NCBI RefSeq assembly: GCF_003991205.1
Contig: NZ_RXOZ01000011.1
Location: 62,001-126,000, forward strand
Length of the DNA: 64,000 nt
Direction of reading: 5' to 3'
DNA from: Georgenia sp. SYP-B2076
Lineage (GTDB): Bacteria > Actinomycetota > Actinomycetes > Actinomycetales > Actinomycetaceae
In this document: positions 327-16,012 of the stretch, one piece after another
Numbering within the stretch: position 1 is the first letter of the stretch
Layout: the number at the start of each line of letters is the position of its first letter
Notes under the pieces: generated by a model
The model's input: the letters and a program-made list of their open reading frames with translations, nothing else
What the model was told of the DNA's origin: nothing
The model's database searches: none
Program-made: the position numbers and the translations under genes

Positions 327-332
327 GGACCG

Positions 333-482
333 CGGTACGACTACCTCCACCACGCCCAGGGCGACCACTCGCGCATGGTCTACTCCGAGATCCTCACCGA
401 CGAGACCAAGGAGACCGCGGCGGCGTTCACGACCCGCGCCCTGGACCACTTCGCCGCCCGCGGCATCAGGGTCGAGCGGGTC
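333..482 (+). mobile_element. IS481-type transposase (integrase core) fragment
   Basis: About 50 codons read RYDYLHHAQGDHSRMVYSEI and then a segment ending ALDHFAARGIRVERV. This is the start of the rve/integrase core of IS481-like transposases, including the first catalytic-aspartate strand and the helix before the second strand. The rest of the transposase, both inverted repeats and any target duplication are absent, and the fragment is fused in frame to the preceding DUF427 remnant. It ends eight bases before the stop codon of the neighbouring IclR gene. It is a dead relic, marking past insertion at the edge of the catabolic island. Confidence 0.6.
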
Positions 483-489
483 AGTACAG

Positions 490-1299
490 CTAGTCGACGC
501 CTTCGGTCGTCGTCGGCGTGATGTCCGCGAGGTTCGCCTGGATGTCGTCCCGTGCGGCCCGGAGCTCGGTAAGGACGTCGTCCTGGACGAGTTCCGCGTA
601 CCGCACGGACGGGGCGGCGATCGCGAGGGCTGCGATCACCCGGCCTGCCGGGTTGTGGATCGCCACCGCGACCGCGGCTACGCCGGACTCTGTCTCGCCG
701 TTCGACACCGCATACCCTTGCTGGCGGTAGACGCGGAGCTGAGAGATCAGCCGGTCCAGCTGACGATCGCTCAGTCCGTCACCCTGGGCCTGGACCATGG
801 GGCTCTGGTACATGGTCCTTACCCTGTCCTCCGGGATATGAGCGAGAAGTACCCGTCCGCCGGCCGCCGTTGCTGCCGGCACGACGGCCCCTGGGCGGGC
901 GACGATCCGAAGCATCTTGTCGCCCTCGAAGCTGTCGAGGAACCGCAGCTTGGTGCCGACGCGGATCTGAAGGTTGACCGTCTCGCCGGTGAGTTGTGAT
1001 AGCTCCTCGAGGGGAGTGGCTGCCGCGGTGCGCAGCAACTCTGTCCCCGGCATCCTGACCGGCACTGCTCCCACAGTGGGACCGGGCACGTAAACCCGCC
1101 TGTCGTCCTGCACCGCGAGGCCGTGGAAGACGAGCATCGACATCAGCCGGTGCACTGTCGACTCAGCAACCCCGAGCTCGATCGCCGCAGTCTTCAGTCG
1201 AACCTCGCCGCGGTCCCTCAGCATGTGCACCAGTCGTATGGCGTTGTCGACCGAGGCGATTGCGTACGCGGGGCGCTTGGGCGCCGGCAACTTCTGCAT
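490..1299 (-). CDS. IclR-family transcriptional regulator
   Basis: This 269-residue protein has the length and layout of IclR regulators. A winged helix-turn-helix (about residues 12-75, recognition segment AESTVHRLMSML) is followed by a GAF-like effector domain (about 90-255) that usually binds an aromatic acid or related metabolite. It is divergent from the aldehyde dehydrogenase gene, so it is the natural candidate regulator of the catabolic genes to its right. No Shine-Dalgarno sequence precedes the ATG. A TACTCT element lies six bases upstream, so the message may be leaderless. The family is secure; the effector and target genes are inferred from position. Confidence 0.9.
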   Translation of the reverse strand: MQKLPAPKRPAYAIASVDNAIRLVHMLRDRGEVRLKTAAIELGVAESTVHRLMSMLVFHGLAVQDDRRVYVPGPTVGAVPVRMPGTELLRTAAATPLEELSQLTGETVNLQIRVGTKLRFLDSFEGDKMLRIVARPGAVVPAATAAGGRVLLAHIPEDRVRTMYQSPMVQAQGDGLSDRQLDRLISQLRVYRQQGYAVSNGETESGVAAVAVAIHNPAGRVIAALAIAAPSVRYAELVQDDVLTELRAARDDIQANLADITPTTTEGVD

Positions 1300-1305
1300 G
1301 GCACA

Positions 1306-1311
1306 AGAGTA
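1306..1311 (-). promoter_or_regulatory. Possible -10 box of a leaderless IclR transcript
   Basis: On the minus strand TACTCT ends six bases before the ATG of the IclR gene and fits the actinobacterial TAnnnT pattern. Transcription would start at or next to the A of the start codon, which would explain the missing ribosome site. This is inference from spacing alone. Confidence 0.3.
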
Positions 1312-1390
1312 TTGCCCGCCGACGTACCGCCCTCGAATATGAGAGCGCTACCGACGGAAGACTGAGCCCCGCAGGCGGAGGAACGATCCA

Positions 1391-2872
1391 GTGAACGAGC
1401 GCGTACGACGCGAAGACGAGCTAGTGGCGGTACGAGAGCGGGACTGGACGTTCCTCATCGGCGGCGCCTTGCGCAGTGCAGAAGATGGCCGGACGTTCCC
1501 TGTGATCGATCCGTATACCGTCGGCCTGCTCGCCGACGTCCCTGACGCCTCGCCCTCCGACGCCGATGCAGCGGTCGATGCGGCGCGTGCGGCACTGCCT
1601 GCCTGGCGGAAGGTGCCGGTGCTCGAGCGTGCCAAGCACCTCTATCGGCTCGCCGACATCGTCGAGGCCAACGCTGAGGAGCTCGCCTTCCTCGAGATGG
1701 TCGACACGGGGTCACCGATCTCGAACGCTCGGGCGGACGTGACGCTCGCGGTCCAGCAGATCCGCATGTACGCCAACCTCGCGCTGGAACTTAAGGGCCA
1801 GACGATCCCAGCGAGCAGCGGTCTGCATTACTCCATCCGGCAGCCAGAGGGCGTGGTCGTCAAGATCAGCGCGTTCAACCACCCGCTGATGTTCGGCTGC
1901 CGCTTCGCTGCCCCCGTCCTCGCGGGCAACACGGTCGTCGTCAAGCCGTCAGAGCTGGCACCGCTGTCGATGCTGCGCCTCGGTGAGCTCATCGTGGACG
2001 AGTTCCCGCCCGGCGTCGTCAACATCGTCGTGGGGGCAGGCGCATCGGTCCCCGATCGCCTCGTACGCCATCCGGCGGTCCGGCGCATCTCGTTCATCGG
2101 CTCCGAGTCGACCGGACGAGCGATTCAGCGGGCTGCCGCCGAGTCGGGCGTCAAGCACGTCACCCTCGAGCTCGGCGGGAAGAATGCGATGGTCGTCTTC
2201 GAGGACGTCGACGTCGATGAGGCCGCGCTGGGGGCCGTTAAGGGAATGAACTTCACCTGGTCCGGCCAGTCGTGCGGGTCGAACTCGAGGGTCCTCGCGC
2301 ACAGCAGCATCGTCGAGGAGCTGACCGACAAGATCGTCGACCTGGTTCGGGCACGGAAGATCGGTGACCCGATGGACGAGGCCACCGAGCAGGGCACGAT
2401 GATCGACCGCGGCCAGTACGAGAAGTCTCTGGAGTACATCGAGATCGCCAAGCAGGAGGGCGCACGGGTCGTCGTCGGGGGAGGACGCCCGGAGGGTCCG
2501 GGGTTCGACGACAGGTTTTTCGTCGAGGCGACTGTGCTGACCGACGTGCGGCCCGAGTTCCGCATCGCGCAGGAAGAGGTGTTCGGACCGATCATGAGCG
2601 TCATCCCCTTCGACACCGAGGACGAAGCCATCCGCATCGCGAACGGCGTGGACTACGGGCTGACCGCGAGTGTGTGGACCAAGGACCTCAACCGGGCGCT
2701 GCGGGTGGTCGAGGAGTTCGAGGCCGGATACATCTGGGTTAACCACTCGTCCACCCACTTCCCCGGCACCCCGTACGGAGGGGTCAAGCGCTCCGGCGTC
2801 GGGGCCAAGGAAGAGTGCCTCGAGGAGCTCTTGTCCTACACCGAGGAAAAAGTCGTCAACGTCGTCTACTAG
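1391..2872 (+). CDS. NAD(P)-dependent aldehyde dehydrogenase
   Basis: A full-length 493-residue member of the aldehyde dehydrogenase superfamily, oxidising an aldehyde to its acid with NAD(P)+. The catalytic residues are visible: Asn163 in SAFNHP, Glu260 in LELGGK and nucleophile Cys295 in GQSCGSN. The GTG start follows a GGAGGAA ribosome site. It is the first rightward gene of the aromatic cluster and is followed after 66 bases by the decarboxylase-like gene. With a cupin dioxygenase and a NahE/PhdJ-like aldolase nearby, a role like PhdK (2-carboxybenzaldehyde dehydrogenase) is attractive. The substrate cannot be read from the sequence. Confidence 0.9.
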   Translation: MNERVRREDELVAVRERDWTFLIGGALRSAEDGRTFPVIDPYTVGLLADVPDASPSDADAAVDAARAALPAWRKVPVLERAKHLYRLADIVEANAEELAFLEMVDTGSPISNARADVTLAVQQIRMYANLALELKGQTIPASSGLHYSIRQPEGVVVKISAFNHPLMFGCRFAAPVLAGNTVVVKPSELAPLSMLRLGELIVDEFPPGVVNIVVGAGASVPDRLVRHPAVRRISFIGSESTGRAIQRAAAESGVKHVTLELGGKNAMVVFEDVDVDEAALGAVKGMNFTWSGQSCGSNSRVLAHSSIVEELTDKIVDLVRARKIGDPMDEATEQGTMIDRGQYEKSLEYIEIAKQEGARVVVGGGRPEGPGFDDRFFVEATVLTDVRPEFRIAQEEVFGPIMSVIPFDTEDEAIRIANGVDYGLTASVWTKDLNRALRVVEEFEAGYIWVNHSSTHFPGTPYGGVKRSGVGAKEECLEELLSYTEEKVVNVVY

Positions 2873-2938
2873 CCCCGGTCACCGGCCGGGGCTGATCCCG
2901 GTCGCGCCGCCGATCGATCCGCAACAGGAGCCAACAGC

Positions 2939-3928
2939 ATGAGCCTTCTTCCCCTGACCATGGCCGCCGTCGACTACGACCGCTTCCACGCCCTGAGTGG
3001 CGGGACGGTCCGCCCCGAGGGGATCGACCTCGAACTGGTCCCGCTCGAGGTCGAGGAGGTGTTCTACCGACAGGTGAAGTACGCCGAGTTCGACGTGAGT
3101 GAGATGAGCCTGTCGACCTATGTGCTCAACCTCGGCCGCGACGACTTCCCCTACGTCGCCCTTCCTGTCTTCCCGTCCCGGTACTTCCGGCACCAGTCCA
3201 TCTTCGTCAACGAACGGAGCGGCATCACCTCCCCGCAGGACCTGCGTGGGAAGAAGGTTGGCGTGCCCGAGTACCAGATCACCGCCAGCGTCTGGCAGCG
3301 CGGCATCCTCCGTGACGACTTCGGGGTCAGGCCCGAAGACATCGAGTGGTACACGGGCGGCGTCGACGAGCCCGGCCGCGAGGAGAAGTCCAGGATCTCG
3401 CTTCCTGACGACGTCCGGGTCCAGGCCATCGGACCGCGGGACACGCTCTCCCAGATGCTGGCCGGCGGCGAGCTTGACGCACTCTTCACCGCGCACGAAC
3501 CGTCCGCCTTCCGGGCGCACGAGCACGTCGTCCGCCTGTTTCCTGACTACAAGGCGATCGAGAAGGACTACTTCGCCCGCACCGGGATCTTCCCGATCAT
3601 GCACTGTGTCGTCGTCCGCCGGAGCGTTCTCGACGCACACCCCTGGGTCGCCCGCTCACTCGTCAAGGCGTTCGACGCCTCGCTGCAAGTCGCGATGCGC
3701 GGCCTGCTGTACCGCAGCTCGCTCAAGGTGGCCCTGCCGTGGCTCGCCGACCACGTCGAGGAGACGGTGGAGGCCCTCGGCCCGGACTACTGGACGTACG
3801 GCATCGAGGCGAACCGCACGGTTCTCGAGACCTTCCTGCGCTACTCCCACGAGCAGGGCCTCGCGGCCCGGCGCTATGCGCCGGAGGAGATCTTCGCGCC
3901 GAGCACGGCGAGCGCGTTCACCATCTGA
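2939..3928 (+). CDS. 4,5-dihydroxyphthalate decarboxylase-like protein
   Basis: This 329-residue protein has the fold of periplasmic NMT1/THI5-like binding proteins but no signal peptide or lipobox, so it should be cytoplasmic. Segments such as YDRFHAL near the start, FPSRYFRHQSIFVN, GVPEYQITASVWQRGIL, FARTGIFPIMH and TFLRYSHEQGLAARRY are characteristic of 4,5-dihydroxyphthalate decarboxylases, which make protocatechuate during phthalate breakdown. Length matches the family. It probably forms a unit with the upstream aldehyde dehydrogenase and ends at a strong bidirectional terminator. Many relatives are annotated as transport proteins; the lack of export signal and the catabolic neighbours argue for an enzyme, though the exact substrate may differ. 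Confidence 0.75.
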   Translation: MSLLPLTMAAVDYDRFHALSGGTVRPEGIDLELVPLEVEEVFYRQVKYAEFDVSEMSLSTYVLNLGRDDFPYVALPVFPSRYFRHQSIFVNERSGITSPQDLRGKKVGVPEYQITASVWQRGILRDDFGVRPEDIEWYTGGVDEPGREEKSRISLPDDVRVQAIGPRDTLSQMLAGGELDALFTAHEPSAFRAHEHVVRLFPDYKAIEKDYFARTGIFPIMHCVVVRRSVLDAHPWVARSLVKAFDASLQVAMRGLLYRSSLKVALPWLADHVEETVEALGPDYWTYGIEANRTVLETFLRYSHEQGLAARRYAPEEIFAPSTASAFTI

Positions 3929-3958
3929 TCGTCCCAGATTCGAGCTCACGACAAACCA

Positions 3959-3989
3959 GCGCCCCCTCCTGGTGACCAGGAGGGGGCGC
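3959..3989. terminator. Bidirectional terminator between convergent genes
   Basis: A perfect 14-base stem (3959-3972 with 3976-3989) closes over a three-base loop, between the rightward decarboxylase-like gene and the leftward dioxygenase operon. It is GC-rich without a clear T-tract, as is usual in this group, and can stop transcription from both sides. Confidence 0.8.
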
Positions 3990-4043
3990 GGTGTCGTGCC
4001 ACCAGGACCGCTGCGCTGGCACCTGCGAGCGCGACGTCCTGTG

Positions 4044-4994
4044 TCAGCGGGGAAACTCGCCGAGCGACGGTCCCCACTTGTTGAGCATGCCGAGGTCGAC
4101 CTCCCAGGTCTGGGGATACATCGGGTGCTGCTCGTGCCAGGGCCGCTCGTCGAAGTACCCGAGCTCCTCGTTCGTCATGACGTCCATCTGTGTGTACAGC
4201 TCGATGGTGTGGCCGTCGGGGTCGGTGTGGTAGGTGAAGACGTTGTGACCGGCGGTGTGGCGACCAGGCCCCCAGAACAGTGAGTAGTCGTCGCGAGCCA
4301 GCGTGTCGAGCATCGTCTGGAGGTGGTTCATGTCCCGGGCCTCGTAGGCGATGTGGTGCATCCCCGAGAAGTTGTCGCTCTGGATGAAGTTGGCCGAGTG
4401 GTGCATGGAGTTGCAGCGGAGGAAGACGAAGAAGTCGCCCACGGTGTCGGACCACCGGAAGCCCAGGGCCTCCTGGTAGAAGGCACGCATGTTGTCGGTC
4501 GAGGTCGTGTACGCCGCCACGTGACCCAGCTTGGTCGGACGCTGGTCGAACGTCGCGCCCACTCCGCTCGGAGTCTGCGACTCGTACAGGTGAACCGGCG
4601 TCCCGGTCTCGGCTTCGTCGAGGACGAGCACCTGGGGCGTGCCCGGACCGATGTCGCTGCGCAGCTCCGACTCCAGGCCGATCGCGGACAGACGACGCCG
4701 TGCGTCGCTCAGTGAGCCGGCGATCTCGTAACCGATGGATTGGCGGCCGGACGCGACGTCCGCCTTCTCGATCACCACGCAGTGGTGGTCGGACCCAGTC
4801 GTGAGGAACACCAGGTCGGGCGACTCCTCCACCAGGGCGAACCCGAGCGTCTTCGTGTAGTACTCCTTGAGCCGGTCGACGTCCGGCGTCGTGAAGGAGA
4901 CGTAGCCCAGCCGACCGACCTGGACGGCCGGGTCCTCAGCCTTCCCAGGCATCTGTGTGGTGGACGTGGCTGCTGTGTTCGTGGCGTCACTCAT
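4044..4994 (-). CDS. Type I extradiol (VOC) ring-cleavage dioxygenase
   Basis: A 316-residue two-domain vicinal-oxygen-chelate protein. The C-terminal half carries the Fe(II) ligand pattern of extradiol dioxygenases: His158 (LGHVAAY), His214 (MHHIAYE) and Glu265 (GHTIELY). It should open a catecholic ring next to the two hydroxyls. The start at 4994 is fixed by AGGAGGAACCG just upstream and by its overlap with the FMN reductase stop as ATGA. It is the last gene of a five-gene leftward operon. Family and metal site are clear. The substrate is unknown and could be a bicyclic or substituted catechol. Confidence 0.87.
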   Translation of the reverse strand: MSDATNTAATSTTQMPGKAEDPAVQVGRLGYVSFTTPDVDRLKEYYTKTLGFALVEESPDLVFLTTGSDHHCVVIEKADVASGRQSIGYEIAGSLSDARRRLSAIGLESELRSDIGPGTPQVLVLDEAETGTPVHLYESQTPSGVGATFDQRPTKLGHVAAYTTSTDNMRAFYQEALGFRWSDTVGDFFVFLRCNSMHHSANFIQSDNFSGMHHIAYEARDMNHLQTMLDTLARDDYSLFWGPGRHTAGHNVFTYHTDPDGHTIELYTQMDVMTNEELGYFDERPWHEQHPMYPQTWEVDLGMLNKWGPSLGEFPR

Positions 4995-5728
4995 CGATCG
5001 GTTCCTCCTGTTGACGATGTGGGGCCGGCGTGCGCCGGCACCGGTTCCTGGCGCGGCCTGCTGCCGCCGTAGCGTGTGGCGCGCAGAGCGTGGGACGCGA
5101 TCTGCACTCGGGACAGCTCGTCGAGCATCGCGACCGCGGCCGCGTCGAAGGCGTCGGTGCTCCGGAACGCGCCCGCGTCCAGGTGACGGTGCACGAACGG
5201 GATGTTCACCGACTCGTGCAGCACGAGCGCCTTGACGGCCACGAGGACTGCCCCGAAGGACTCGGCGGCGCGCGCCCCGGCGCCGACGTTGCTGCCGTAG
5301 CTGACCATCCCGGCCGGCTTGTCGGACCACTCGTGGAACAGGTAGTCGACGGCGTTCTTCAGGGCGGCGCTGTATCCGTGGTTGTACTCCGGCATGACGA
5401 ACACGAAGGCGTCAGCCCGCTGCACGCGCTCGCTCCATCGCCTGGAGTGTGCGTGCTCGTACCGGCCCATCTTTGCGCCGACCGGTTCGTCGAGCAGCGG
5501 GAGGTCGATCTCGGCGAGGTCGACCAGGTCGACGTCGAACCCGCCGTGCCCGGCTGCGATCCTGTGCACCCAGTGCGCGACCTCGGCGCCGACCCGACCG
5601 GGCCTGGTGGCTCCGATGATGATCTGGAGGGTCGGCCGGGCCGCGCCCTCGCCGTCGACGTGGGTCGGGACGAATGGCGCCGCGGGGTCGTCGTTCCGGG
5701 TGTGGACGCCGGTGCCGCTCATGCTCAT
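4991..5728 (-). CDS. NAD(P)H-dependent FMN reductase
   Basis: A 245-residue flavodoxin-fold reductase. The FMN-phosphate loop appears near residue 38 as IGATRPGRVG, and PEYNHGYSAALKNAVDYL is the signature strand and helix of the NADPH-dependent FMN reductase family. It overlaps both neighbours by ATGA, so it is translated as part of the catabolic operon. It probably supplies reduced flavin to the two acyl-CoA-dehydrogenase-like monooxygenases encoded to the right, or keeps quinone intermediates reduced. A second, unrelated flavin reductase at 10,555 offers an alternative partner, so the division of labour is open. Confidence 0.85.
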   Translation of the reverse strand: MSMSGTGVHTRNDDPAAPFVPTHVDGEGAARPTLQIIIGATRPGRVGAEVAHWVHRIAAGHGGFDVDLVDLAEIDLPLLDEPVGAKMGRYEHAHSRRWSERVQRADAFVFVMPEYNHGYSAALKNAVDYLFHEWSDKPAGMVSYGSNVGAGARAAESFGAVLVAVKALVLHESVNIPFVHRHLDAGAFRSTDAFDAAAVAMLDELSRVQIASHALRATRYGGSRPRQEPVPAHAGPTSSTGGTDR

Positions 5729-6633
5729 GCGCCCCTCGGTGGGGCGATGGTGGTGGTGAGCCGGCCGAGGAGCTCGATGTCGACCGTGACCGTGTCGCCC
5801 GGGCGCAGGAACTCACCACGCGGCATGCCGACGCCGGCGGGGGTGCCGGTGAGGATGACGTCGCCCGGCTCGAGGGTCACGTCGCGGCTCGCCGCCGCGA
5901 CGAGCTCCGCCACGCCCGCGATGAGACGGGAGGTGTTCGATCGCTGCTTCGTCACGCCGTTGACACGGCTCTCGATGGAGAGCGCCTCGGGGTCCGGGAC
6001 GAGCCACGCGGGCACCACCCCGGGACCGAGCGGGCAGAGGCCGTCGAGCGCCTTGTGGGCGTACCAGTCCGAGGCGAACGGGGGTGCGATGGCGTCGTCC
6101 CGGAAGAAGAGCCCGCGCGCCGACAGGTCGTTCGCCGCGACGTAACCCGCGACGTGGTCGAGTGCTGAGTCGACGGAGACGTTGACGCACCGGTCGGCGA
6201 TCACGACTCCCATCTCGGCCTCCCAGTCGAGGTTCGGGTCGGGCGCGCCCGGGAGCGGGACGTGGGCGTCGGGGCCGACGATCGTCGTTGTCGGAGGCTT
6301 GAGGAAGAACCAGGGCGCGGGACGGCCGACCACCTTGCCGTCGCTCATCTCCGCCAGGTGGTCGGAGTAGTTCGCGCCGGCGCAGATGAGCTTGCGCGGA
6401 TACGTGATCGGGGCTGCCAGCGTGGCACCGGGGACGACCACCAGGTCGGAGGGGTCGAGGTCGACGAGGGCGCCGCGCCACTCACCCCATCGGTCGAACA
6501 GCTCCGCCGATGTCGCGGGCCAGCCGGATGGCACCGCGTGCATCACGTCCCCGGCGAGGATTCCCAGGTGAGTTCCGTCGTCGTCGACGTACTGCGCGAT
6601 CGACCACGGTGCGGGCGAGGGAGAGGTCTTCAT
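5725..6633 (-). CDS. Fumarylacetoacetate hydrolase-family protein
   Basis: A 302-residue FAH-family protein with an N-terminal cap of about 80 residues and the catalytic beta-roll behind it. The family blocks CAGANYSDHLAEM, WFFLKPPTT and the acidic metal site DWEAEMGVVI are present, as is TGTPAGVG near the end. Members hydrolyse or decarboxylate the ring-fission products of aromatic catabolism using Mg or Mn. The ATG at 6633 makes an ATGA overlap with the upstream aldolase gene; a longer open frame upstream is only a shadow. In this operon it should act after ring cleavage by the cupin or extradiol enzyme. Confidence 0.88.
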   Translation of the reverse strand: MKTSPSPAPWSIAQYVDDDGTHLGILAGDVMHAVPSGWPATSAELFDRWGEWRGALVDLDPSDLVVVPGATLAAPITYPRKLICAGANYSDHLAEMSDGKVVGRPAPWFFLKPPTTTIVGPDAHVPLPGAPDPNLDWEAEMGVVIADRCVNVSVDSALDHVAGYVAANDLSARGLFFRDDAIAPPFASDWYAHKALDGLCPLGPGVVPAWLVPDPEALSIESRVNGVTKQRSNTSRLIAGVAELVAAASRDVTLEPGDVILTGTPAGVGMPRGEFLRPGDTVTVDIELLGRLTTTIAPPRGA

Positions 6634-7637
6634 ACGAGGGTCGCCCCCTCCGTCGCAGCACCGGCCACGTAGCGCGCCCGAATCGTGGCCCAGCGTCGGC
6701 CCGCCTCGGTGCCACCGGCGATGTACTCCTCGGGTGCGGTCGTGTACGGGTGACGGGTCGGCCCGGGGTTGCTGTATCCCGACCCGATGAACTTGGCGCG
6801 GTCGATCTGGATGCTGTAGGCCATGAACTTGGCGAGGTCGCCGTCCGGGAAGAGGGGCTCGAGGGCCCACTCCAGCTCTTCGTCGATCCGCTCGGCGACG
6901 TCCCAGTTCCTGGTGCGCAGCGCCTCGGAGAGCGCGACGAGCGGCTCGGGTCCGCAGGCCGCGTCGCCGGTCCAGGCTGCGTGGACCTGCCCCGGGAACG
7001 CCTTCACCATGCTCACCCAGTTCTCCACCAGGGGCAGGAGGGCGAACCGGCCGTCCAGGGCGGCGAGGTCGGCCCCGAATGTCTCGGTCGACTTTCCGCC
7101 CGTGTACTTCGCCGCCACGATCTGGGGGATCGTCGCCAGGCCCGCGTACGCCGTCGTGGAGATTTTTCCCTTGAAGACGCCAGGGTTGTCGTAGGCCACC
7201 AACGCGGCGTCGGGCAGAGCGTCGGCCACCGCACGGTAGTAGTCGACGATCTGGTGGTCGTCCAGGGGCAGCCAGCTCGGTCGTCCCACGAACAGGCCGT
7301 CGGCGCCGAGAGCCATCAGTGCCGCGCCGCGGCGGATGGTGTCGCGTGTGTTGGGTGCCGTGGGGCCCACCATCACCGGGATGCGCCCGTCGACGACCTT
7401 GACGACGGTGTCGGCGAACGCGAGGAGCTCGTCCTCGGTAAGAGTGGCCACCTCGCCGAAGGTGCCCGTCGTCATGAGGACATTGACCCCCGCGGTGACG
7501 ACGTTCTCCACGAGCCGGGCGGTCTCCTCCAGATCGACCGTCGACACTGCGGTGGGCGAGTCGGCACCGGGCAGCGCCGGCGTCGGGATGATGCCGACGA
7601 CGCCCCGGATGTCGTCGGCGGTGACCCGCCGGCTCAC
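6630..7637 (-). CDS. DHDPS-family hydratase-aldolase (NahE/PhdJ-like)
   Basis: A 335-residue class I aldolase of the dihydrodipicolinate synthase superfamily. The opening IRGVVGIIPTPA and the block TTGTFGEVATLTEDE resemble trans-o-hydroxybenzylidenepyruvate and trans-2-carboxybenzalpyruvate hydratase-aldolases rather than biosynthetic DapA. The Schiff-base lysine is Lys177 (AAKYTG), with Tyr149 in AYDNP. Such enzymes add water to an aryl-ylidene pyruvate and release pyruvate plus an aromatic aldehyde, which would feed the aldehyde dehydrogenase at 1391. The GTG start at 7637 forms a GTGA overlap with the cupin stop. The subfamily call is from motif memory. Confidence 0.8.
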   Translation of the reverse strand: MSRRVTADDIRGVVGIIPTPALPGADSPTAVSTVDLEETARLVENVVTAGVNVLMTTGTFGEVATLTEDELLAFADTVVKVVDGRIPVMVGPTAPNTRDTIRRGAALMALGADGLFVGRPSWLPLDDHQIVDYYRAVADALPDAALVAYDNPGVFKGKISTTAYAGLATIPQIVAAKYTGGKSTETFGADLAALDGRFALLPLVENWVSMVKAFPGQVHAAWTGDAACGPEPLVALSEALRTRNWDVAERIDEELEWALEPLFPDGDLAKFMAYSIQIDRAKFIGSGYSNPGPTRHPYTTAPEEYIAGGTEAGRRWATIRARYVAGAATEGATLV

Positions 7638-8785: not shown

Positions 8786-9061
8786 GAAGACTCCTTCCTC
8801 ACTTTTCGAGCGCCCGGCACTCTCTGTAAGCGCCCGGCATCCGGGCGAGCTGCCCTGGGTTGCTGGTGATGCTTGACGTGGTCTCGGGGGCTCAACGCCG
8901 AACCCTCGGTGGGACCGTGGCGCGGTCGGCGCCGGTCGTCACCTCGAAGGTCTCGATCGTCCTTCCGGGCGCTTGTCGCGACGGCACCAGGAGACAGGTG
9001 CTGTCAGTGGTGCTGATCACGTTTGCATCGTGACACAGGCCGATGGTGAATCCCTTTGGGA

Positions 9062-9076
9062 TTCTGACTGTCAGAA
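9062..9076. promoter_or_regulatory. Operator candidate TTCTG-N5-CAGAA, copy 1
   Basis: TTCTGACTGTCAGAA is a perfect inverted repeat of seven-base arms around one base. It lies 277 bases upstream of the cupin start and 259 bases upstream of the binding-protein start. The outer five bases recur exactly at 9187-9201. It may be the site of the IclR regulator at 490 or of an unseen regulator. Confidence 0.5.
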
Positions 9077-9186
9077 GTGAGCGCGCGGGCGTGTGGAGGT
9101 GGGTGCTGCATCGCCCTCCCGACGACCCGAAACAGTCGGTGTGAGCCCCGCCGCGAGTGCCGGTCGACCTCCACCGAGGCAGTGAC

Positions 9187-9201
9187 TTCTGGGACGCAGA
9201 A
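9187..9201. promoter_or_regulatory. Operator candidate TTCTG-N5-CAGAA, copy 2
   Basis: TTCTGGGACGCAGAA has the same outer pentamers and spacing as copy 1, 125 bases to its right (about twelve helical turns). It lies 134 bases before the start codon of the binding-protein gene. Repetition of pattern and spacing within one intergenic region supports a shared regulator. Confidence 0.5.
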
Positions 9202-9334
9202 TCTCGTGGAGGTGCCATGGGCGCGCGCATAGCGTCGCCAGGGAGGAAGCGTTCCTCACCGTCGGTGACGAACGCACGAGCCGGCCGGCTCGAGGACGAT
9301 GCCCGGTCCGTCGTCACCAAGAACAAGGAGTCCC

Positions 9335-10345
9335 ATGTCGAACATCCGCCGTGCACGGCCTCTTACGGGGCTGCTGCTCGCCGTACCCCTGGCGCTCGCC
9401 GCGTGCTCGTCGAGCGCGGGCGGCGACTCCGCCGGCGCGGCCGAGGCGCAGACCGCCGCCGCAGCCGGGGGCTCCGAAGAGCTGATTCCCGTCACCGTCG
9501 GCGCGCTCCCGATCGTGCCGACGGCAGCACTTCTGTACGGGGTCGACAACGGGATCTTCGAGGAGCACGGACTGGACGTCACCCTCGAGACCGGCGCCGG
9601 CGCGGAGAACTTCGTCGCCGCCCTCGTCGCCGGTGAGTTCGACTTCGCCTCGGTCAACACCGTCTCGGTGATGGTGGCGCTCGACAAGGACGTCCCGATC
9701 ACCGTGACCTCGGGCTACTCGCAGGCGTGGAGCGATGCCGACGGTGAGGACATCTCCGCCGTCCTCGCCAAGCCCGCCTCGGGCATCACGAGGCCCGCTG
9801 ACCTCGAGGGGCGCACGGTCGCGCTCAACCAGGTGAACTCCGCAGGGATGTTGAGCATCCGGGAAGCCGTGCGTCTGGACGGCGGTGACCCGGACGCCGT
9901 CAAGTTTGTCGAAATCAAGTTCCCGAACGCGATCGCGGCACTCGAGAGCGGGGACGTCGACGCGATCTGGGAGGTCGAGCCGTTCATCACCATCGCGCAG
10001 CGCGGTGGCGCGGAGGTGGTCTCGTGGAACTTCCTCGAGGCGTCGCCCGGCGTGAGCACCCAGATCATGGTGGCGGAAGCCGGCGTCGACCCTGCGCTCG
10101 TCGAGCAGTTCACCACGGCGCTCACCGACGTTCTCGAGCAGGCCGAGGGGGACGCCGAAGGCACGCGGCAGTCGCTGGTCAACCTGCTCGAGATGGATAC
10201 CGCGCTGGCGAAGAGCGCACGGATGGAGCACTTCACCACGGCCATCAACGTCGACGCGGTCGCGCGCTTCGCGGAGCTCGCGCTCGAGGAGAAGTTCATC
10301 GACGAAGCGGTCGACATGTCCGCGTTTCCTGCCGCCCCCGAGTGA
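9335..10345 (+). CDS. NMT1/THI5-like ABC substrate-binding lipoprotein
   Basis: A 336-residue exported binding protein. The N-terminus has basic residues, a hydrophobic stretch and the lipobox LAAC with lipidated Cys24, followed by a Ser/Gly/Ala-rich tether. The mature part (IPVTVGALPIVPTAALLYGV onward, with DFASVNTVS) is typical of NMT1/THI5-like and SsuA-like receptors for organic acids. ATG 9335 is chosen because AAGGAG sits four bases upstream and the signal peptide begins there. No ABC permease or ATPase gene lies in the window, so partners must be elsewhere. It probably captures the aromatic substrate of this cluster. Confidence 0.88.
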   Translation: MSNIRRARPLTGLLLAVPLALAACSSSAGGDSAGAAEAQTAAAAGGSEELIPVTVGALPIVPTAALLYGVDNGIFEEHGLDVTLETGAGAENFVAALVAGEFDFASVNTVSVMVALDKDVPITVTSGYSQAWSDADGEDISAVLAKPASGITRPADLEGRTVALNQVNSAGMLSIREAVRLDGGDPDAVKFVEIKFPNAIAALESGDVDAIWEVEPFITIAQRGGAEVVSWNFLEASPGVSTQIMVAEAGVDPALVEQFTTALTDVLEQAEGDAEGTRQSLVNLLEMDTALAKSARMEHFTTAINVDAVARFAELALEEKFIDEAVDMSAFPAAPE

Positions 10346-10424
10346 TATCGAAACGCTCGAGAACGCTGTGCTCATTGAAACCGCGCCGACCGCGCGAGCG
10401 CGCGGGGCTCGCATTTCTCGACGT

Positions 10425-10439
10425 TTCTTCAGATCAGAA
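10425..10439. promoter_or_regulatory. Imperfect copy of the TTCTG-N5-CAGAA palindrome
   Basis: TTCTTCAGATCAGAA differs from the pattern at 9062 and 9187 by one base. It lies 116 bases before the flavin reductase start, in the 209-base gap after the binding-protein gene, where a separate promoter for the monooxygenase genes would be expected. One mismatch makes chance occurrence possible. Confidence 0.35.
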
Positions 10440-10554
10440 GTTTATGGATCGCTCGGCGCGGATCGGGCAGGGTGAATCAATACCCGGCCAATGGCGAGAT
10501 CGATCGCCGAACCGAAATCGGCCGAAAGCATACGAAACAGAGAGGTTTCGGGTA

Positions 10555-11145
10555 ATGACACCCAGAACGTTTGCCTCGCCGTCGGGCGCCGGCGTCAGCC
10601 AGAACCTGACGCCTCGCAACGGCGACGGGCTGTCGCCCGACGAGTTCAAGGCCGCTTTCCGCAATCACCCCGCAGGCGTCGCGCTGATCACCGCCGACGA
10701 CGGCGAGAGGCCGGTCGCCCTCACCGCGACGTCCGTGATCTCTGTGAGCGCGGTCCCGCCGATGCTGGTCTTCTCGGTGACGGAGTTCTCGTCGAGCGCG
10801 CCGGTCCTGCGCGCAGCCGACACGGTCGTCGTGCACCTGCTCGGGGCCGAGCAGCTCGACCTGGCGAAGCTGGGTGCCACCAGCGGGATCGACAGGTTCG
10901 CCGACACCACCCTCTGGTCGCGACTGCCGACCGGTGAGCCGTTCTTCCCGTCGGCGTCCGTCTGGATCCGCGGTCGCGTCGTCGAGAAGGTCATCGTCGG
11001 CAACTCCATCGTCTTCGTCGTCCAGGGCCTCGAGGCGAAGATCGGCGACTCGGATGTCGACGCGGCGGAGCGCGAGTCCTCGGTTCCGCTCGTGTACCAC
11101 AACCGGACGTGGCACCACCTGGGCCAGGGCTCGAGGGTCGAGTAG
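10555..11145 (+). CDS. Flavin reductase (HpaC/HsaB-like)
   Basis: A 196-residue split-barrel flavin reductase. The family core is visible from FKAAFRNHPAGVALITA through ALTATSVISVSAVPPMLVFSV to the C-terminal VPLVYHNRTWHHL. Such proteins reduce free FMN or FAD with NAD(P)H and hand it to a partner oxygenase. It lies directly before two acyl-CoA-dehydrogenase-fold monooxygenase genes, the same pairing as HsaB with HsaA. ATG 10555 is chosen because AGAGG precedes it and homology begins soon after; the longer frame upstream overlaps the lipoprotein gene and is not real. Confidence 0.87.
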   Translation: MTPRTFASPSGAGVSQNLTPRNGDGLSPDEFKAAFRNHPAGVALITADDGERPVALTATSVISVSAVPPMLVFSVTEFSSSAPVLRAADTVVVHLLGAEQLDLAKLGATSGIDRFADTTLWSRLPTGEPFFPSASVWIRGRVVEKVIVGNSIVFVVQGLEAKIGDSDVDAAERESSVPLVYHNRTWHHLGQGSRVE

Positions 11146-11324
11146 GGCGGGTGCACCGGCAGGCGCTGAGCCGTCCCGCCGGCACATCACGGCCGTGATC
11201 GGCTGGTCACTTCTAGGCACCGGAAGAAATCGAAAGAACGGAACGGCCCTCTCACTCTGGTTCCGTCGAGAAGGCAAACACCCATCGCCGTGCCGGCATT
11301 GGTGCCGAAAACAAGGAGGTTCTC

Positions 11325-12500
11325 ATGAACGTTGACACTGCGACGATCCCGTCCACCGCCGGTCAGATCAAGCAGCGGGTCGCCGAGCTGGTCCCGGTTT
11401 TCCGCGCGCGGATCGAGGCGAGCAACCGCGATCGCAGCATCCCGCGAGAGTCGATCGACGACCTGGTCGACGCCGGGCTCGCACGGATGCTCGTCCCTGC
11501 CCGGTTCGGGGGCTCCGCCCTCACGACGCGGGACGCCGTCGAGGTGACCACCGCCGTCGCCCACGGGTGCCCGTCCACCGCGTGGCTGTCGTGGCTGATG
11601 ATCCACGACCCGCAGCTCGTCTCGATGTTCCCGCTCGAGGCGCAGGAGGCGGTGTGGGCCGACGGTCCCGACGTCGTGGTCGCGGGCTCTCACATGGGCA
11701 TGACCATCACTCCCGTCGAGGGCGGCTACCGCCTCTCCGGCCGCGGGGCGTTCACCAGCGGCTCCAACAACGCGGGGTGGGTCTACGTCGGCGGCATGCT
11801 CCCGCAGCCGGCCGGCCCGCCCCAGATCCGGTACTTCCTCCTGCGCGCAGGGCAGTACACGGTCGAGGACACGTGGGACACCGTCGGCATGCGTGGAACG
11901 GGGAGCAACACGGTCGTCGTCGACGACGTGTTCGTCCCGGAGAGCTTCAGCATGCTCCACGACGACGCCCGGGACGGCACCAGTCCCGGATCGAAGATCC
12001 ACGACACCCCCGCTCTGCGGCAGCCATGGGTGGCCATCGGGAGCCTCGGCTTCATCTCGACGATCGTCGGGGCGAGCCAGGCTGCCTACCAGGAGGTCGC
12101 AGCTGCGCTCGCCCAGAAGAGGACTCCCGCAGGGGCTCGCGTCGCCGAGAGCGAAGGCCTGCAGGTCGACGTCGGCCTGATCGCGGCCAAGCTCGACGCA
12201 GCCCTCGAGCTCCTCAACGGGCAGGCCGACCGAGCGGACGCCGGGGGTGACCTCACACTGGAGGAGCGCGCTGCACGCAGCCGGACCCAGACGTTCGCGG
12301 CGCAGCTGGCGCTGGAGGCCATCGACAAGCTGATGGAGATCGGCGGGACATCGATGTTCGCCTCGGGGGCGTTCGCGCAGCAGGTCTGGCGCGACGTCCA
12401 CTTCGCCGCAGCCCACATCTCGATCAGCAAGCGCGCCACCTATGCGCGCCATGCCCGGGCCGTCCTGGGCGTCGAGCCGCCCTTCGAGCTCTTCTACTGA
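11325..12500 (+). CDS. Flavin-dependent monooxygenase, acyl-CoA dehydrogenase fold (1)
   Basis: A 391-residue member of the class D flavoprotein monooxygenases, which have the acyl-CoA dehydrogenase fold but use reduced flavin and oxygen to hydroxylate aromatics (HsaA, HpaB- or DszC-like). The helical N-domain (about 10-120), central beta domain (SGRGAFTSGSNNAGW, then GMRGTGSNTVVVDDVFVPE) and C-terminal helical bundle (235-391) are in order. AAGGAGG is placed ideally before the ATG. It follows a flavin reductase and precedes a second enzyme of the same fold. The substrate is not known; hydroxylation of a phenolic or heteroaromatic acid would fit. Confidence 0.83.
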   Translation: MNVDTATIPSTAGQIKQRVAELVPVFRARIEASNRDRSIPRESIDDLVDAGLARMLVPARFGGSALTTRDAVEVTTAVAHGCPSTAWLSWLMIHDPQLVSMFPLEAQEAVWADGPDVVVAGSHMGMTITPVEGGYRLSGRGAFTSGSNNAGWVYVGGMLPQPAGPPQIRYFLLRAGQYTVEDTWDTVGMRGTGSNTVVVDDVFVPESFSMLHDDARDGTSPGSKIHDTPALRQPWVAIGSLGFISTIVGASQAAYQEVAAALAQKRTPAGARVAESEGLQVDVGLIAAKLDAALELLNGQADRADAGGDLTLEERAARSRTQTFAAQLALEAIDKLMEIGGTSMFASGAFAQQVWRDVHFAAAHISISKRATYARHARAVLGVEPPFELFY

Positions 12501-12593
12501 CCACAGCCGCCTGTCTCAACGGAGTGACGGGCCATCAAGGGAGTACCGGTGTGGCAGTGTGCTTCCCGGAGATCAAGAAAGGACGGCACCACG

Positions 12594-13766
12594 GTGACCG
12601 CAACGAACATCACCACCGGTCTCACCAAACAGGAGGCCATCAGGCGCGCCGAGGCGCTCGTCACGGTGCTCGCCGAGCGGGCGGCCGCGACGGAGCAGCT
12701 GCGACGGGTCCCGGACGAGTCGATATCCGACCTCAAGCAGGCCGGGCTCGTCTCGATCGCACGCCCTGAGCGGTTCGGCGGTCCGGGTCTGGACTACGAC
12801 GCCGCATTCGAGGTCGGCTACACCCTCGCGCAAGGCTGCGCCTCGACCGCGTGGATCACCGGGCTCACCCATATTCACGACTACGCCGCCGGTCGCGCGT
12901 CGGTGCAGGCGCAGGAGGCGTACTTCAGCGCGCCGGACACCATGAGCGCGTCGGCTTTCGCCCCCATGGGGAAGGTGACGCCCGTCGACGGAGGGTGGAT
13001 GTTCGAGGGGGCGTGGGCCACCTCGAGCGGTTGCGACCACGCCACATGGGTCCTGCTGGGTGGTGCGGTGGTCGAGGGTGACATGGTCCTCGCGATGGTG
13101 CCGCGCGACGCGGTGGAGATCGTCGATGACTGGCACGTCGCCGGGCTGCGCGGCACGGGGTCGAAGACGGTGAGGATCAGCGAGCCGGTCTTCGTGCCCG
13201 AGTGGCGGTGGATCCCGCGCTTCGGTGGCGATGCCAACCTCGAGATGCGTGACGAGTACGAGCGGCCTTCATACGGGGCGCCCGTCGCGGGCATGCTGCC
13301 CTTCCCCCAGATCTCGGTGCTGCTCGGCACGGCCCGCGCCGCGGTGGACACGTTCGCGAAGCAGGCGATGGAGCGCCGGATCCCCGGCGGCGCGCGGATC
13401 GCCGACCAGGTACCGATCCAGGTGCGTCTGGCCGAGTCCGAGGCCGAGGTTGATGCGGCACTGCTCCTCGCACGGTCGACCATCGCGGAGCTCATGAAGC
13501 GCGGTGCGGCGGGCGACACCTTCTCGGTCGAAGACCGTGTGACCTGGCGCCGGAACCACGCCTACGTCGCGAAACTCTGCGTCCAGGCAGTCAACAGGGT
13601 CTATGACGCAGCCGGCGGCGGCGCGATCTACGACCGCAACCCCATGCAGCGCTTCCACCGCGATGTCCACGCAGGCTCGCACCACATCGGCCTCAACTGG
13701 GACGACAACTCGGTTCTCTACGGGCGGGTCCGCTTGGGCCTGGAGCCCCAGGGGCTCTTCTGGTAG
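12594..13766 (+). CDS. Flavin-dependent monooxygenase, acyl-CoA dehydrogenase fold (2)
   Basis: A 390-residue paralogue of the preceding gene with the same domain order: helical N-domain, central beta domain (GLRGTGSKTVRISEPVFVPE) and helical C-domain. The two are clearly diverged, so they probably hydroxylate successive intermediates or form a hetero-oligomer rather than duplicate one activity. The GTG at 12594 is chosen over an upstream GTG because GAAAGGA lies about ten bases before it and the protein length then matches its neighbour. Gap to the upstream gene is 93 bases. Reduced flavin should come from one of the two reductases in the cluster. Confidence 0.82.
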   Translation: MTATNITTGLTKQEAIRRAEALVTVLAERAAATEQLRRVPDESISDLKQAGLVSIARPERFGGPGLDYDAAFEVGYTLAQGCASTAWITGLTHIHDYAAGRASVQAQEAYFSAPDTMSASAFAPMGKVTPVDGGWMFEGAWATSSGCDHATWVLLGGAVVEGDMVLAMVPRDAVEIVDDWHVAGLRGTGSKTVRISEPVFVPEWRWIPRFGGDANLEMRDEYERPSYGAPVAGMLPFPQISVLLGTARAAVDTFAKQAMERRIPGGARIADQVPIQVRLAESEAEVDAALLLARSTIAELMKRGAAGDTFSVEDRVTWRRNHAYVAKLCVQAVNRVYDAAGGGAIYDRNPMQRFHRDVHAGSHHIGLNWDDNSVLYGRVRLGLEPQGLFW

Positions 13767-13980
13767 TCACCAGAAGAGAGAGGGGGCCGGGCACTGGTAG
13801 CCAAGCGGCTCGTCGACAACCGAGTGCTCACGCGATCAGCCAGGCGGGCTCGATAAGACGGCTGGAGCTGGCGCGGGAGCACTCGCGTGTCGGGATGGGA
13901 GCCCGGTGAATCCGTGGATGCCCAACCGATTCCGCCTCTGACGTGTGTGGTGCTCGACTCGGCGCGCGACATCGAATCCC

Positions 13981-13995
13981 GGAGTCCAGGACTCC
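13981..13995. promoter_or_regulatory. Inverted repeat GGAGTCC-A-GGACTCC
   Basis: A perfect seven-base inverted repeat around a single base lies 146 bases before the MFS start codon. Size and symmetry suit a dimeric regulator, but no second copy was found in the window. Confidence 0.3.
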
Positions 13996-14052
13996 TGACA
14001 TGTTCGCTGGCGCCGTGCTGCACCCCAGGCAACTCGGGAATGGGGATGCTTC

Positions 14053-14067
14053 TTCTGGCTGACGGAA
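14053..14067. promoter_or_regulatory. Imperfect TTCTG-N5-CAGAA copy before the MFS gene
   Basis: TTCTGGCTGACGGAA matches the palindrome of 9062 and 9187 with one mismatch, 74 bases before the transporter start codon. If real, it would place the transporter in the same regulon as the dioxygenase operon. Confidence 0.3.
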
Positions 14068-14140
14068 GCTGATAACCGGATTCTGCGGTCGCCCCTACCT
14101 TGAAAATCGATGAAGCCGTGACCCGAGGCAAAGGAGCCCC

Positions 14141-15373
14141 ATGACCGACCTGACGCTTTCACCAGCTGCCCTACCCAGCAATCCCGCAGGCGTGGAGGAA
14201 TCCGTGGCGCGTCCGCGTGTCGGCGTGCTTCCTGTGGTGATCCTGATCGCCGCAGCCTGCATGCCTATACTCGGTTCCACGTCGATCGCGCCGCTGCAAC
14301 CGTCGATGATCGCAGCGTTCCCTGATCAGCCAGGAGCCGAAGTGCTTGTGGCCATGTCGCTGACCGTGCCAGCGCTGGTCATGGGGCTCACTGCGTTCAC
14401 GATCGGCCGTTTCATGGACGCGATCGGACGGAAGCGCGTGCTTGTGGCTGCGCTATTCCTGTACGCGTTCTTCGGGACGATGCCCCTGTATCTGCACGAC
14501 TTACCCCTGATTCTCGGCAGCCGAGTCGTCGTGGGCATCACCGAAGCGGCGATCTTCGCAGGAGTCACCACGATCCTCGCCGACTACTTCACTGGCGGCC
14601 GACGAGCGCGGTACTTCGGCATTCAAAACATCGCCACCTGCCTGTCTGCAGTGGTGTTCATCGCCCTGGCCGGCGTGCTCGGCAGCGGTAACTGGCGCAT
14701 CCCCTTCTGGATGTACACCATCGCCGTCGTGCTCGGAGTGCTCGCGTGGGCTTTCCTCCCCGTGACCGGCGGCGAGCGCGTGAAGCGCGTGAAGCTTTCC
14801 CCGGTGGATTGGAAGCTCTTGCGCAACCCGGTGCTGTTCACGATCGCAGCAGGCATCGCGTTCTACATCCCGGTCGGGCTGCTGTCCTTCAAGCTGGACA
14901 CGATCGGTGTCGTCTCGACAGCCGTTATCGGCGGCTTGAGCGCGATCGCTGCGTTCGCAACCGCGATCGGCGCTGGCTCGTACGCGTCCATCCTGAAGCG
15001 GCGACCTAACGTGCTGCTGCTCGCGGGCTTCGGGCTCTTGGGCATCGGGCTCCCGTTGCTCGGGCTCGGAGAGAGCATTCCGGTGGTGGCAACCGGCGCA
15101 GTCATCGCCAACATCGGTGGGGGCCTGCTCATTCCCACCCTGCAGAACTGGTCGGTTCAGAGCGTCCCGTTCGAGCAGCGCGGTCGCGCCGCAGGCTGGT
15201 TCACATCGAGCTTCTTCGCCGGGCACTTCATCGGCCCGGTGCTGATCGTGGGCCTGTCGACCACGATTCCGATCGGTGTACCGATTGCGATCTTTGGCGC
15301 TGCGGCACTCGTCATCGCCGTCATCGGTCGCCTGACTGTGCGACTCCGCCCGAACGAAGAGGTTGCCGCGTAG
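14141..15373 (+). CDS. MFS transporter
   Basis: A 410-residue integral membrane protein with about twelve hydrophobic segments and a loop between segments 2 and 3 (GRFMDAIGRKRV) matching the major facilitator signature. AAAGGAG precedes the ATG. It closes the catabolic island, so uptake of the aromatic substrate or export of an intermediate is likely. Base composition is clearly less GC-rich than in genes from 16,000 on, in keeping with the rest of the island. Substrate specificity cannot be judged from the sequence. Confidence 0.88.
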   Translation: MTDLTLSPAALPSNPAGVEESVARPRVGVLPVVILIAAACMPILGSTSIAPLQPSMIAAFPDQPGAEVLVAMSLTVPALVMGLTAFTIGRFMDAIGRKRVLVAALFLYAFFGTMPLYLHDLPLILGSRVVVGITEAAIFAGVTTILADYFTGGRRARYFGIQNIATCLSAVVFIALAGVLGSGNWRIPFWMYTIAVVLGVLAWAFLPVTGGERVKRVKLSPVDWKLLRNPVLFTIAAGIAFYIPVGLLSFKLDTIGVVSTAVIGGLSAIAAFATAIGAGSYASILKRRPNVLLLAGFGLLGIGLPLLGLGESIPVVATGAVIANIGGGLLIPTLQNWSVQSVPFEQRGRAAGWFTSSFFAGHFIGPVLIVGLSTTIPIGVPIAIFGAAALVIAVIGRLTVRLRPNEEVAA

Positions 15374-16012
15374 CATCCGCGTTCACTGTGAGGCGAGGGC
15401 GCGAGCAACATCCCTCACCTCACCGGCGGCACCGCCTTCGCGGTCGGTGCCGCCCACCAGCAACAGCTTCTCGAAGACAGAAGAACGTGGCAAACAGGTA
15501 CCGGTCAGCGATGGTCGAGGGCAGCTTCAGTCGCCGCCGGTCCGTCTCCGGCCAGGGGACGAGTCTCGCGTCGTGCCAGGTTGGTCGCTACCTACGGTTG
15601 AGCTTTGACTCTCTCGGGTTTCGCGACTGCTTTTTCTGGACCGGCGTCGCGCATGTTGACGCCCATGATGCCGACCCGCAGGGTGCGGTGCCCTGAATCG
15701 ATGACCCCGTCGTGCACGGTGGCTTCGAGTTGGAGGAAAGCCTGTACGTCGCGCAGCCGAGTCTCACAATGGGCGGACACACAGCCGGTGTGCGGCCGTC
15801 GCGCTGCGGTCGGCGGAATCGGGATTCGCCGTACCGACTCCCGGCCGGAGGCAGCTTGAGCTGCGCCAGCGGCGGCGTCCCCCGAGGCGTCGGCGTCATC
15901 CCGTAGTGCCATGCCACCGACCACGGCTCCTTGTACAGTTGTGCCCAGCGGGCCCTCTGCCGCCGCTCGCCGCGGATGCCGCCGTCGGCCCTGCACCCGT
16001 CAGGGAGCCACC
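15374..16012. other. Island boundary, no confident gene
   Basis: A 639-base stretch between the MFS gene and the transaldolase-like gene. A hairpin at 15425-15454 could end the island transcript. A leftward open frame at 15592-15996 could encode up to 134 residues and contains TRLRDVQAFLQLEATVHDGV, which looks more protein-like than most shadows. It has no ribosome site and I recognise no family, so I do not call it. Composition changes here from moderate to very high GC. Confidence 0.4.
15425..15454 (+). terminator. Hairpin after the MFS gene
   Basis: GGCGGCACCG pairs perfectly with CGGTGCCGCC over a ten-base loop, 52 bases past the MFS stop. No T-run follows. It is a plausible terminator of the transporter transcript. 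Confidence 0.5.

Follow-up and report, generated by a model that had tools for sequence, protein, structure and literature searches.

Among described systems, those closest to a 13-gene locus in Georgenia sp. SYP-B2076 are the lower pathway of phenanthrene degradation, the ipp cluster for 2-isopropylphenol and the HsaABC enzymes of steroid degradation. Pseudarthrobacter phenanthrenivorans Sphe3 degrades phenanthrene via phthalate and protocatechuate (PMC3111998, PMC8431788), and the title of a reference cited in PMC8431788 records the characterization of two of its 1-hydroxy-2-naphthoate dioxygenases; Arthrobacter SF27 is reported to be a phenanthrene degrader (PMC12728591), and Mycobacterium TJFP1 is reported to carry phdI-phdJ-phdF of the lower phenanthrene pathway (PMC12114333). 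The Georgenia locus lies at 490-15373 of a 64,000-nucleotide stretch (hereafter the window; contig NZ_RXOZ01000011.1, positions 62,001 to 126,000) and was delimited by family searches and the coordinates of open reading frames, which accounted for all of the enzymes named in an earlier note on this DNA. As judged from sequence, the locus is very probably an acquired catabolic island built on a PhdI-PhdJ-PhdK module. That the island encodes one pathway for a hydroxynaphthoate-type acid, bicyclic and hydroxylated, is given a probability of about 0.6 with the qualified assignments below included; the part of this reading in which flavin monooxygenases would replace Rieske chemistry and an extradiol dioxygenase with a fumarylacetoacetate hydrolase (FAH)-family protein would open the second ring is less sure than the core module. 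Compared with the lower phenanthrene pathway, the island lacks a Rieske dioxygenase, a second hydratase-aldolase and a PhdF-type extradiol dioxygenase, and has instead a different extradiol dioxygenase, an FAH-family protein, flavin monooxygenases and a dihydroxyphthalate decarboxylase-like protein.

The cupin dioxygenase (7634-8785, minus strand) is 67.9-69.5% identical to an enzyme encoded on a Sphe3 plasmid, its best plasmid match (the next is at about 45%); we take this copy, on pASPHE301, to be one of the two characterized Sphe3 hydroxynaphthoate dioxygenases. In a tree of 13 cupins it belongs to a clade of four with Sphe3 and Arthrobacter SF27 (support 100/100), and a split with 99/99 support divides the hydroxynaphthoate-type cupins from gentisate dioxygenases. 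Residues H111, H113, R119 and H153 are kept in all 13 alignment rows; the three histidines align to the iron-binding positions of salicylate and gentisate dioxygenases and are presumably the iron ligands here. Assignment as a gentisate 1,2-dioxygenase was rejected, as the score to TIGR02272 is 250.6 bits against a cut-off of 442.1 and the tree places the protein elsewhere, so that the label "gentisate-type" in the earlier note gives way to membership of the 1-hydroxy-2-naphthoate dioxygenase clade. By homology and clade the cupin is predicted to be a PhdI-like dioxygenase that cleaves 1-hydroxy-2-naphthoate-type acids.

The hydratase-aldolase (6630-7637, minus strand) scores 391 bits to PhdJ (PDB 6dan) versus 247 and 239 bits to hydroxybenzylidenepyruvate (NahE-type) enzymes, is 57.6% identical to the Sphe3 plasmid copy, and groups with Sphe3 and Arthrobacter SF27 at 100/99 in a tree of 14 aldolases, where, as in the cupin tree, several rows cover the matched stretch only and not the whole gene. 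Residues Y149 and K177, which we assume to have the catalytic (Schiff base) role, are kept in 14 of 14 rows. Of the former description "NahE/PhdJ-like", the PDB scores and the tree uphold the PhdJ half and discard the NahE half. The aldehyde dehydrogenase (1391-2872, plus strand) is 49% identical to one that adjoins the cupin and PhdJ genes on pASPHE301 and 47% identical to Streptomyces copies; it is linked to the cupin and aldolase genes but lies on the opposite strand, belongs to a large superfamily and reached none of the 25 curated models listed. Homology and linkage suggest a PhdK-like enzyme that would oxidize 2-carboxybenzaldehyde-type products. On pASPHE301 the cupin gene is followed by the aldolase gene, with the same 4-bp overlap as in the island, and then by the aldehyde dehydrogenase gene. 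The clades of the cupin and aldolase together with the related dehydrogenase thus point to a core of the known PhdI-PhdJ-PhdK kind, in which hydroxynaphthoate yields pyruvate and a phthalate-type acid, and do not support the earlier view that the combination is unfamiliar as a whole. Arthrobacter SF27 carries two distinct pairs of cupin and aldolase genes, only one of which is accompanied by the aldehyde dehydrogenase gene in the stretch examined.

What appears to be new in the island is the coupling of this core to an extradiol dioxygenase and an FAH-family protein outside the clade typical of polycyclic aromatic hydrocarbon (PAH) degradation. Among the titles and abstracts listed by searches of an open-access literature library, none reports the gene set of the island. 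The extradiol dioxygenase (4044-4994, minus strand; PF00903) is a type I (VOC) enzyme of 316 residues with two domains. In a tree of 20 dioxygenases it is placed with two Streptomyces enzymes (100/99), and a 100/100 split sets it among 15 rows apart from the other five, which are NahC, the PhdF-position enzymes and two Prescottella enzymes; its tie to plasmid relatives (93/94) includes open forks, in a tree rooted only at its midpoint. It is 65-67% identical to the Streptomyces copies, only 25-27% identical to PhdF-position enzymes and at most 41% identical to its plasmid relatives (16 records at an E-value of 1e-30), and the iron-site residues H158, H214 and E265 are kept in 20 of 20 rows. 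The FAH-family protein (5725-6633, minus strand; PF01557, 208 bits) is 49-51% identical to the Streptomyces copies and is predicted to be an acylpyruvate or meta-cleavage product hydrolase; an acylpyruvate role is in line with the breakdown of 4-hydroxypyridine, for which an FAH-family protein was proposed, not shown, to be a formylpyruvate hydrolase (PMC7356986). An annotated FAH gene lies within about 4 kb of the related dioxygenase in eight of the ten plasmid loci read from the 16 records; the gene tables of these plasmids are not complete, and of the two stretches without an FAH gene one stops at the end of its record. The extradiol dioxygenase and FAH-family protein do not belong to the phenanthrene module. 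The presence of two iron dioxygenases of different kinds in a single operon fits the successive opening of two rings, which the earlier note had proposed.

This pair is linked to the core in two Streptomyces as well. A contig scan for the module with two strict peptide patterns returned four loci, namely two contigs of Arthrobacter SF27, Streptomyces acidicola K1PN6 and S. carpinensis NRRL B-16921; as the patterns were strict, this count does not establish that the five-gene module is rare. The stretches examined of the two Arthrobacter SF27 contigs had no match to the extradiol dioxygenase, which at an E-value of 1e-60 was found in one of 392 Streptomyces genomes, corresponding to the S. acidicola contig (100% identical genes). 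In S. acidicola and S. carpinensis the aldehyde dehydrogenase (47%), cupin (51%), aldolase (58%), extradiol dioxygenase and FAH genes occur together, which suggests that the extradiol dioxygenase and FAH-family protein belong to the cupin-aldolase pathway; the novelty once claimed for the exact gene set does not extend to these five genes. We know of no characterization of the Streptomyces set. Unlike in the island, all five genes run in one direction there, and genes for a P450 with a ferredoxin reductase, an amidohydrolase, a thiolase-like and a CaiB-like protein (names read from sequence) lie upstream. Still further upstream in S. acidicola are genes for FMN-monooxygenase-like, flavin reductase-like and amine oxidase-like proteins, likewise read from sequence. 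The proteins of these loci are 87-96% identical between the two species, except for a GntR regulator (71%).

The candidate enzymes for hydroxylation in the island are two flavin monooxygenases (11325-12500 and 12594-13766, both plus strand). Both have the PF08028 domain and HsaA/HPAH relatives in the PDB, which places them in the acyl-CoA-dehydrogenase-fold (group D) class, and they score 250 and 267 bits, respectively, to the NCBIfam HsaA model, whose curated cut-off of 450 is not reached; to PDB 2rfq the first (HsaA-like) scores 177 bits and the second (HsaA/HPAH-like) 208 bits. The HpaC/HsaB-family flavin reductase encoded next to them (10555-11145, plus strand; PF01613, 98 bits) falls below the NCBIfam cut-offs of all eight models matched and may be their partner. 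The other reductase, an NADPH-dependent FMN/quinone reductase family protein (FMN_red; 4991-5728, minus strand; PF03358, 117 bits), is of a different family, so that the two flavin reductases are unrelated, as had been noted. A region of contig C32 that matches 4044-6000 at the DNA level was first considered to encode a second extradiol dioxygenase, but its product turned out to be related to the FMN reductase (55%). HsaABC resembles the island in combining an acyl-CoA-dehydrogenase-fold monooxygenase, a reductase and a type I extradiol dioxygenase, but the island proteins are far below the NCBIfam cut-offs for HsaA, HsaB and HsaC and thus are not equivalogs. Plasmid searches with the two monooxygenases (E-value 1e-60) gave matches of 36-38% in two records each. 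The relative in Agrobacterium vitis has extradiol dioxygenase and FAH genes nearby, and that in Variovorax is accompanied by genes for a flavin reductase and for an intradiol dioxygenase. The two HsaA-like monooxygenases are predicted to occupy the place that Rieske enzymes have in PAH pathways.

The decarboxylase-like protein (2939-3928, plus strand) has a single PDB match at E-values up to 1, the 4,5-dihydroxyphthalate decarboxylase 9jp7 (E-value 5e-85, 289 bits, residues 2-328 of 329), and is 46% identical to the annotated 4,5-dihydroxyphthalate decarboxylase of Massilia sp. WG5; by homology it would decarboxylate a dihydroxyphthalate. A plasmid of Massilia sp. WG5, presumably a phenanthrene degrader, has this decarboxylase gene in one cluster with aldolase (50%) and cupin (44%) genes, but with Rieske oxygenase genes between the cupin and decarboxylase genes, and the 16.9 kb examined had no match to the island's extradiol dioxygenase, FAH-family protein or flavin monooxygenases. 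Elsewhere in the Georgenia genome, pcaG and pcaH both score above curated cut-offs, and a 4-hydroxybenzoate 3-monooxygenase scores above the subfamily cut-off and below the stricter equivalog cut-off; thus the strain can probably use protocatechuate, and the decarboxylase together with pcaHG suggests that carbon flows to protocatechuate.

In the pathway proposed here, the substrate would be taken up by a substrate-binding lipoprotein, a major facilitator superfamily (MFS) transporter or both, and one or both group D monooxygenases, supplied by the HpaC/HsaB-like reductase, would add phenolic hydroxyls. The cupin is then predicted to cleave the ring between the carbons that bear the hydroxyl and carboxyl groups, as PhdI does; the PhdJ-like enzyme to hydrate the arylidene pyruvate and split off pyruvate, leaving a 2-carboxybenzaldehyde-type product; and the PhdK-like dehydrogenase to oxidize this to a phthalate-type diacid. 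The decarboxylase would remove one carboxylate from a dihydroxyphthalate, the hydroxyls of which, with no Rieske enzyme in the island, may come from a second monooxygenation or from a substrate that is already hydroxylated. The resulting catechol-type acid may be opened by the extradiol dioxygenase and the product hydrolyzed by the FAH-family protein; if the acid is protocatechuate, the chromosomal pcaHG may act instead. A more complete version can be put forward only tentatively: that the island provides for full breakdown of a bicyclic hydroxy-acid with no Rieske enzyme, in which the monooxygenases supply the hydroxyls, the first ring is cleaved by the PhdI-type cupin and the second by the extradiol dioxygenase, whose clade keeps company with FAH genes, to give an acylpyruvate-type product for hydrolysis by the FAH-family protein, and that the five-gene core is a mobile module of distant actinobacteria, joined to varied upstream oxygenases. 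The substrate of such a route is possibly a hydroxylated 2-naphthoate, which may be a natural compound, e.g., 1,4-dihydroxy-2-naphthoate. Here the lower phenanthrene module is seen with no PAH-activating dioxygenase adjoining it and tied by conserved linkage to a second ring-opening pair. If the proposal is true, the FAH-associated clade of extradiol dioxygenases is assigned a role, and hydroxynaphthoate catabolism may have natural compounds among its targets, not tar pollutants only.

Several results weigh against a single pathway of this kind. The separation of the wider PhdJ group from NahE has support of only 83/93, and in the same tree the island aldolase has a long branch, as does NahE. 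Neither the flavin monooxygenases nor the decarboxylase had a relative in the 19-21 kb examined around each Streptomyces match, so that these enzymes may not serve the same step as the five shared genes. The monooxygenase relative in Prescottella is accompanied by extradiol-type VOC genes and also by two Rieske oxygenases; with this locus among the three plasmid loci read, such monooxygenases are not confined to clusters that lack a Rieske enzyme. Should the pathway lead to protocatechuate, pcaHG would make the extradiol dioxygenase and FAH-family protein of the island redundant. Finally, the statement that no Rieske oxygenase is present holds for the 13 island genes and fails for the organism, as an unlinked cluster on contig C7 encodes the alpha subunit of a Rieske enzyme (260 bits to phthalate 3,4-dioxygenase, 269 bits to naphthalene dioxygenase), ferredoxin reductase-like and dihydrodiol dehydrogenase-like proteins (both below curated cut-offs) and a VOC dioxygenase. 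The Rieske enzyme could supply the phthalate hydroxylation, and because the island binding protein is 58% identical to that of the C7 cluster, the two loci could cooperate. The C7 cluster (locus positions 1730-13065) also includes genes for two LysR-like regulators, read from sequence, and the binding protein.

The C7 Rieske gene is one reason to consider that the island holds two adjacent pathways, in which the PhdI-PhdJ-PhdK enzymes and the decarboxylase would serve hydroxynaphthoate and phthalate, with Rieske chemistry supplied from elsewhere in the genome, and the monooxygenases, reductases, extradiol dioxygenase and FAH-family protein would form a separate phenol pathway. The ipp cluster of Rhodococcus sp. 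D-6 unites an HsaA-like group D monooxygenase, a flavin reductase, an extradiol dioxygenase and an FAH protein for 2-isopropylphenol, a single-ring substrate, and has no cupin, aldolase or decarboxylase among the eight genes listed for it; its dioxygenase, IppB, has 211 residues (PMC12442392), compared with 316 in the two-domain island enzyme. The frequent proximity of FAH genes to related extradiol dioxygenases on plasmids also favors a separate pathway, as does the A. vitis locus, where the relative of the second monooxygenase lies beside the dioxygenase and FAH genes and no cupin or aldolase is annotated near. In the island, however, the extradiol dioxygenase and FAH genes are joined by overlaps to those for the cupin and aldolase in one operon, the two Streptomyces combine the same genes with no monooxygenase relative found in the stretches examined, and the Rieske gene is present in five of nine genus genomes (interrupted by in-frame stops in one of them), compared with one of nine for the island cupin. 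Two adjacent pathways are considered unlikely.

Most of the enzyme classes needed for a naphthol or naphthalene route via salicylate to gentisate are present as well: the extradiol dioxygenase would cleave the first ring, salicylate would arise through the aldolase and dehydrogenase, a monooxygenase would form gentisate, and the cupin and FAH-family protein would finish, in keeping with annotated gentisate dioxygenase genes that adjoin FAH genes at loci examined elsewhere. The subfamilies make this route quite improbable, as the cupin groups with hydroxynaphthoate dioxygenases and is well below the gentisate dioxygenase cut-off, the aldolase is PhdJ-like and not NahE-like, the NahC clade does not include the extradiol dioxygenase, and the dihydroxyphthalate decarboxylase is left without a role. 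A complete phenanthrene-type PAH pathway would have the same PhdI-PhdJ-PhdK core, and the nearest relatives of the cupin are in phenanthrene degraders; such a pathway is very improbable, given that the 13 genes include no ring-hydroxylating Rieske gene, that the genome has no second hydratase-aldolase of this kind (PhdG; the next best match is at 27%) and that the extradiol dioxygenase is of a different clade from the PhdF-position enzymes.

Horizontal acquisition of the island, also proposed in the earlier note, is well supported by sequence comparison. The cupin was found in one of 200 family genomes at an E-value of 1e-60, that of the window itself, and in none of the 199 others, which include eight other members of the genus. 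In wider searches for further copies of the five-gene module, the cupin at 1e-70 was found in three of 396 phylum genomes, one of them that of the window, and the extradiol dioxygenase at 1e-60 in one of 394 class genomes, again the window's own. In G076, the nearest relative as judged by a right-flank gene, homology resumes at window position 15908, and the left flank stops about 0.95 kb before the window begins, so that the true left edge of the island is outside the window. Between these flanks are 74.7 kb in G076 and 16.9 kb in this genome; the content of the site thus varies, and in this genome the island takes up almost all of it. In G076 the counterpart of the C7 Rieske gene sits within the variable region, and in the 36.8 kb beside the right flank the only match of at least 200 bases is to the binding-protein gene (71%). 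The content of guanine and cytosine (GC) is 67.7% for 490-15373 versus 73.7% for 16001-64000, and at third codon positions (GC3) the mean is 0.891 for the 13 island genes versus 0.943 for 16 comparison frames chosen by hand (Mann-Whitney p 0.0007), in agreement with the lower GC that had been remarked; genes of the left flank have GC3 as low as the island or lower (GrpB, 0.74; a RibD-like gene, 0.85). The supposed transposase relic is a fragment of the IS481 family at the island's left edge in the window (324-488, plus strand), which matches NCBIfam NF033577 with 42 bits (E-value 6e-11; curated cut-off 224) and, by tblastn, annotated plasmid IS481 transposases such as that of Arthrobacter sp. 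FB24 (64% over 59 amino acids); it had no Pfam match at an E-value of 0.01. Absence from relatives, a variable site and atypical composition together identify a horizontally acquired island.

The 13 genes are arranged so that unit A (plus strand) consists of the aldehyde dehydrogenase and decarboxylase-like genes, with the gene for an IclR-family regulator (490-1299, minus strand; PF01614, 110 bits; PF09339) divergent from it; unit B (minus strand) runs from the cupin through the hydratase-aldolase, FAH-family protein and FMN reductase to the extradiol dioxygenase; and unit C (plus strand) runs from the SsuA/NMT1-like substrate-binding lipoprotein (9335-10345; PF09084) through the flavin reductase and the two monooxygenases to the MFS transporter (14141-15373; PF07690, 164 bits). 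Each unit may be a single transcript, and the four 4-bp overlaps of unit B, one at each junction of its five genes, suggest one translationally coupled operon. The lipoprotein, which probably takes up an aromatic acid, is also 40% identical to a binding protein of a pca/pob locus, and the genome seems to pair SsuA-like binding proteins with several aromatic-acid loci. That locus, in 462001-480000 of contig C1, contains pcaG, pcaH, a pobA-like gene and SsuA-like binding proteins (locus positions 8758-15273). Among the plasmid relatives of the extradiol dioxygenase, those of Agrobacterium and Salipiger lie in an identical run of genes for an NAD(P)-dependent oxidoreductase, an FAH-family protein, a VOC dioxygenase, a small cupin and an NTF2-like protein (locus positions 4207-7795 and 4203-7766).

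No sigma-70-like promoter was found in 1-16020, and a search for repeats in 1-17000 gave nothing remarkable. The gap between the divergent units B and C contains two abutting perfect palindromes, GAATCCCTTTGGGATTC (9048-9064) and TTCTGACTGTCAGAA (9062-9076), each in a single copy in the window; matches within two mismatches occurred in 27 of 100 shuffles for GAATCCCTTTGGGATTC and 8 of 100 for TTCTGACTGTCAGAA, so that 9048-9076 is a candidate operator, or regulator site, of which each palindrome could be due to chance. The convergent 3' ends of units A and B are separated by a probable terminator hairpin (3959-3989) with a 14-bp stem, the longest of the seven sites found in a scan for terminator-like structures (4.7 +/- 1.8 in shuffles).

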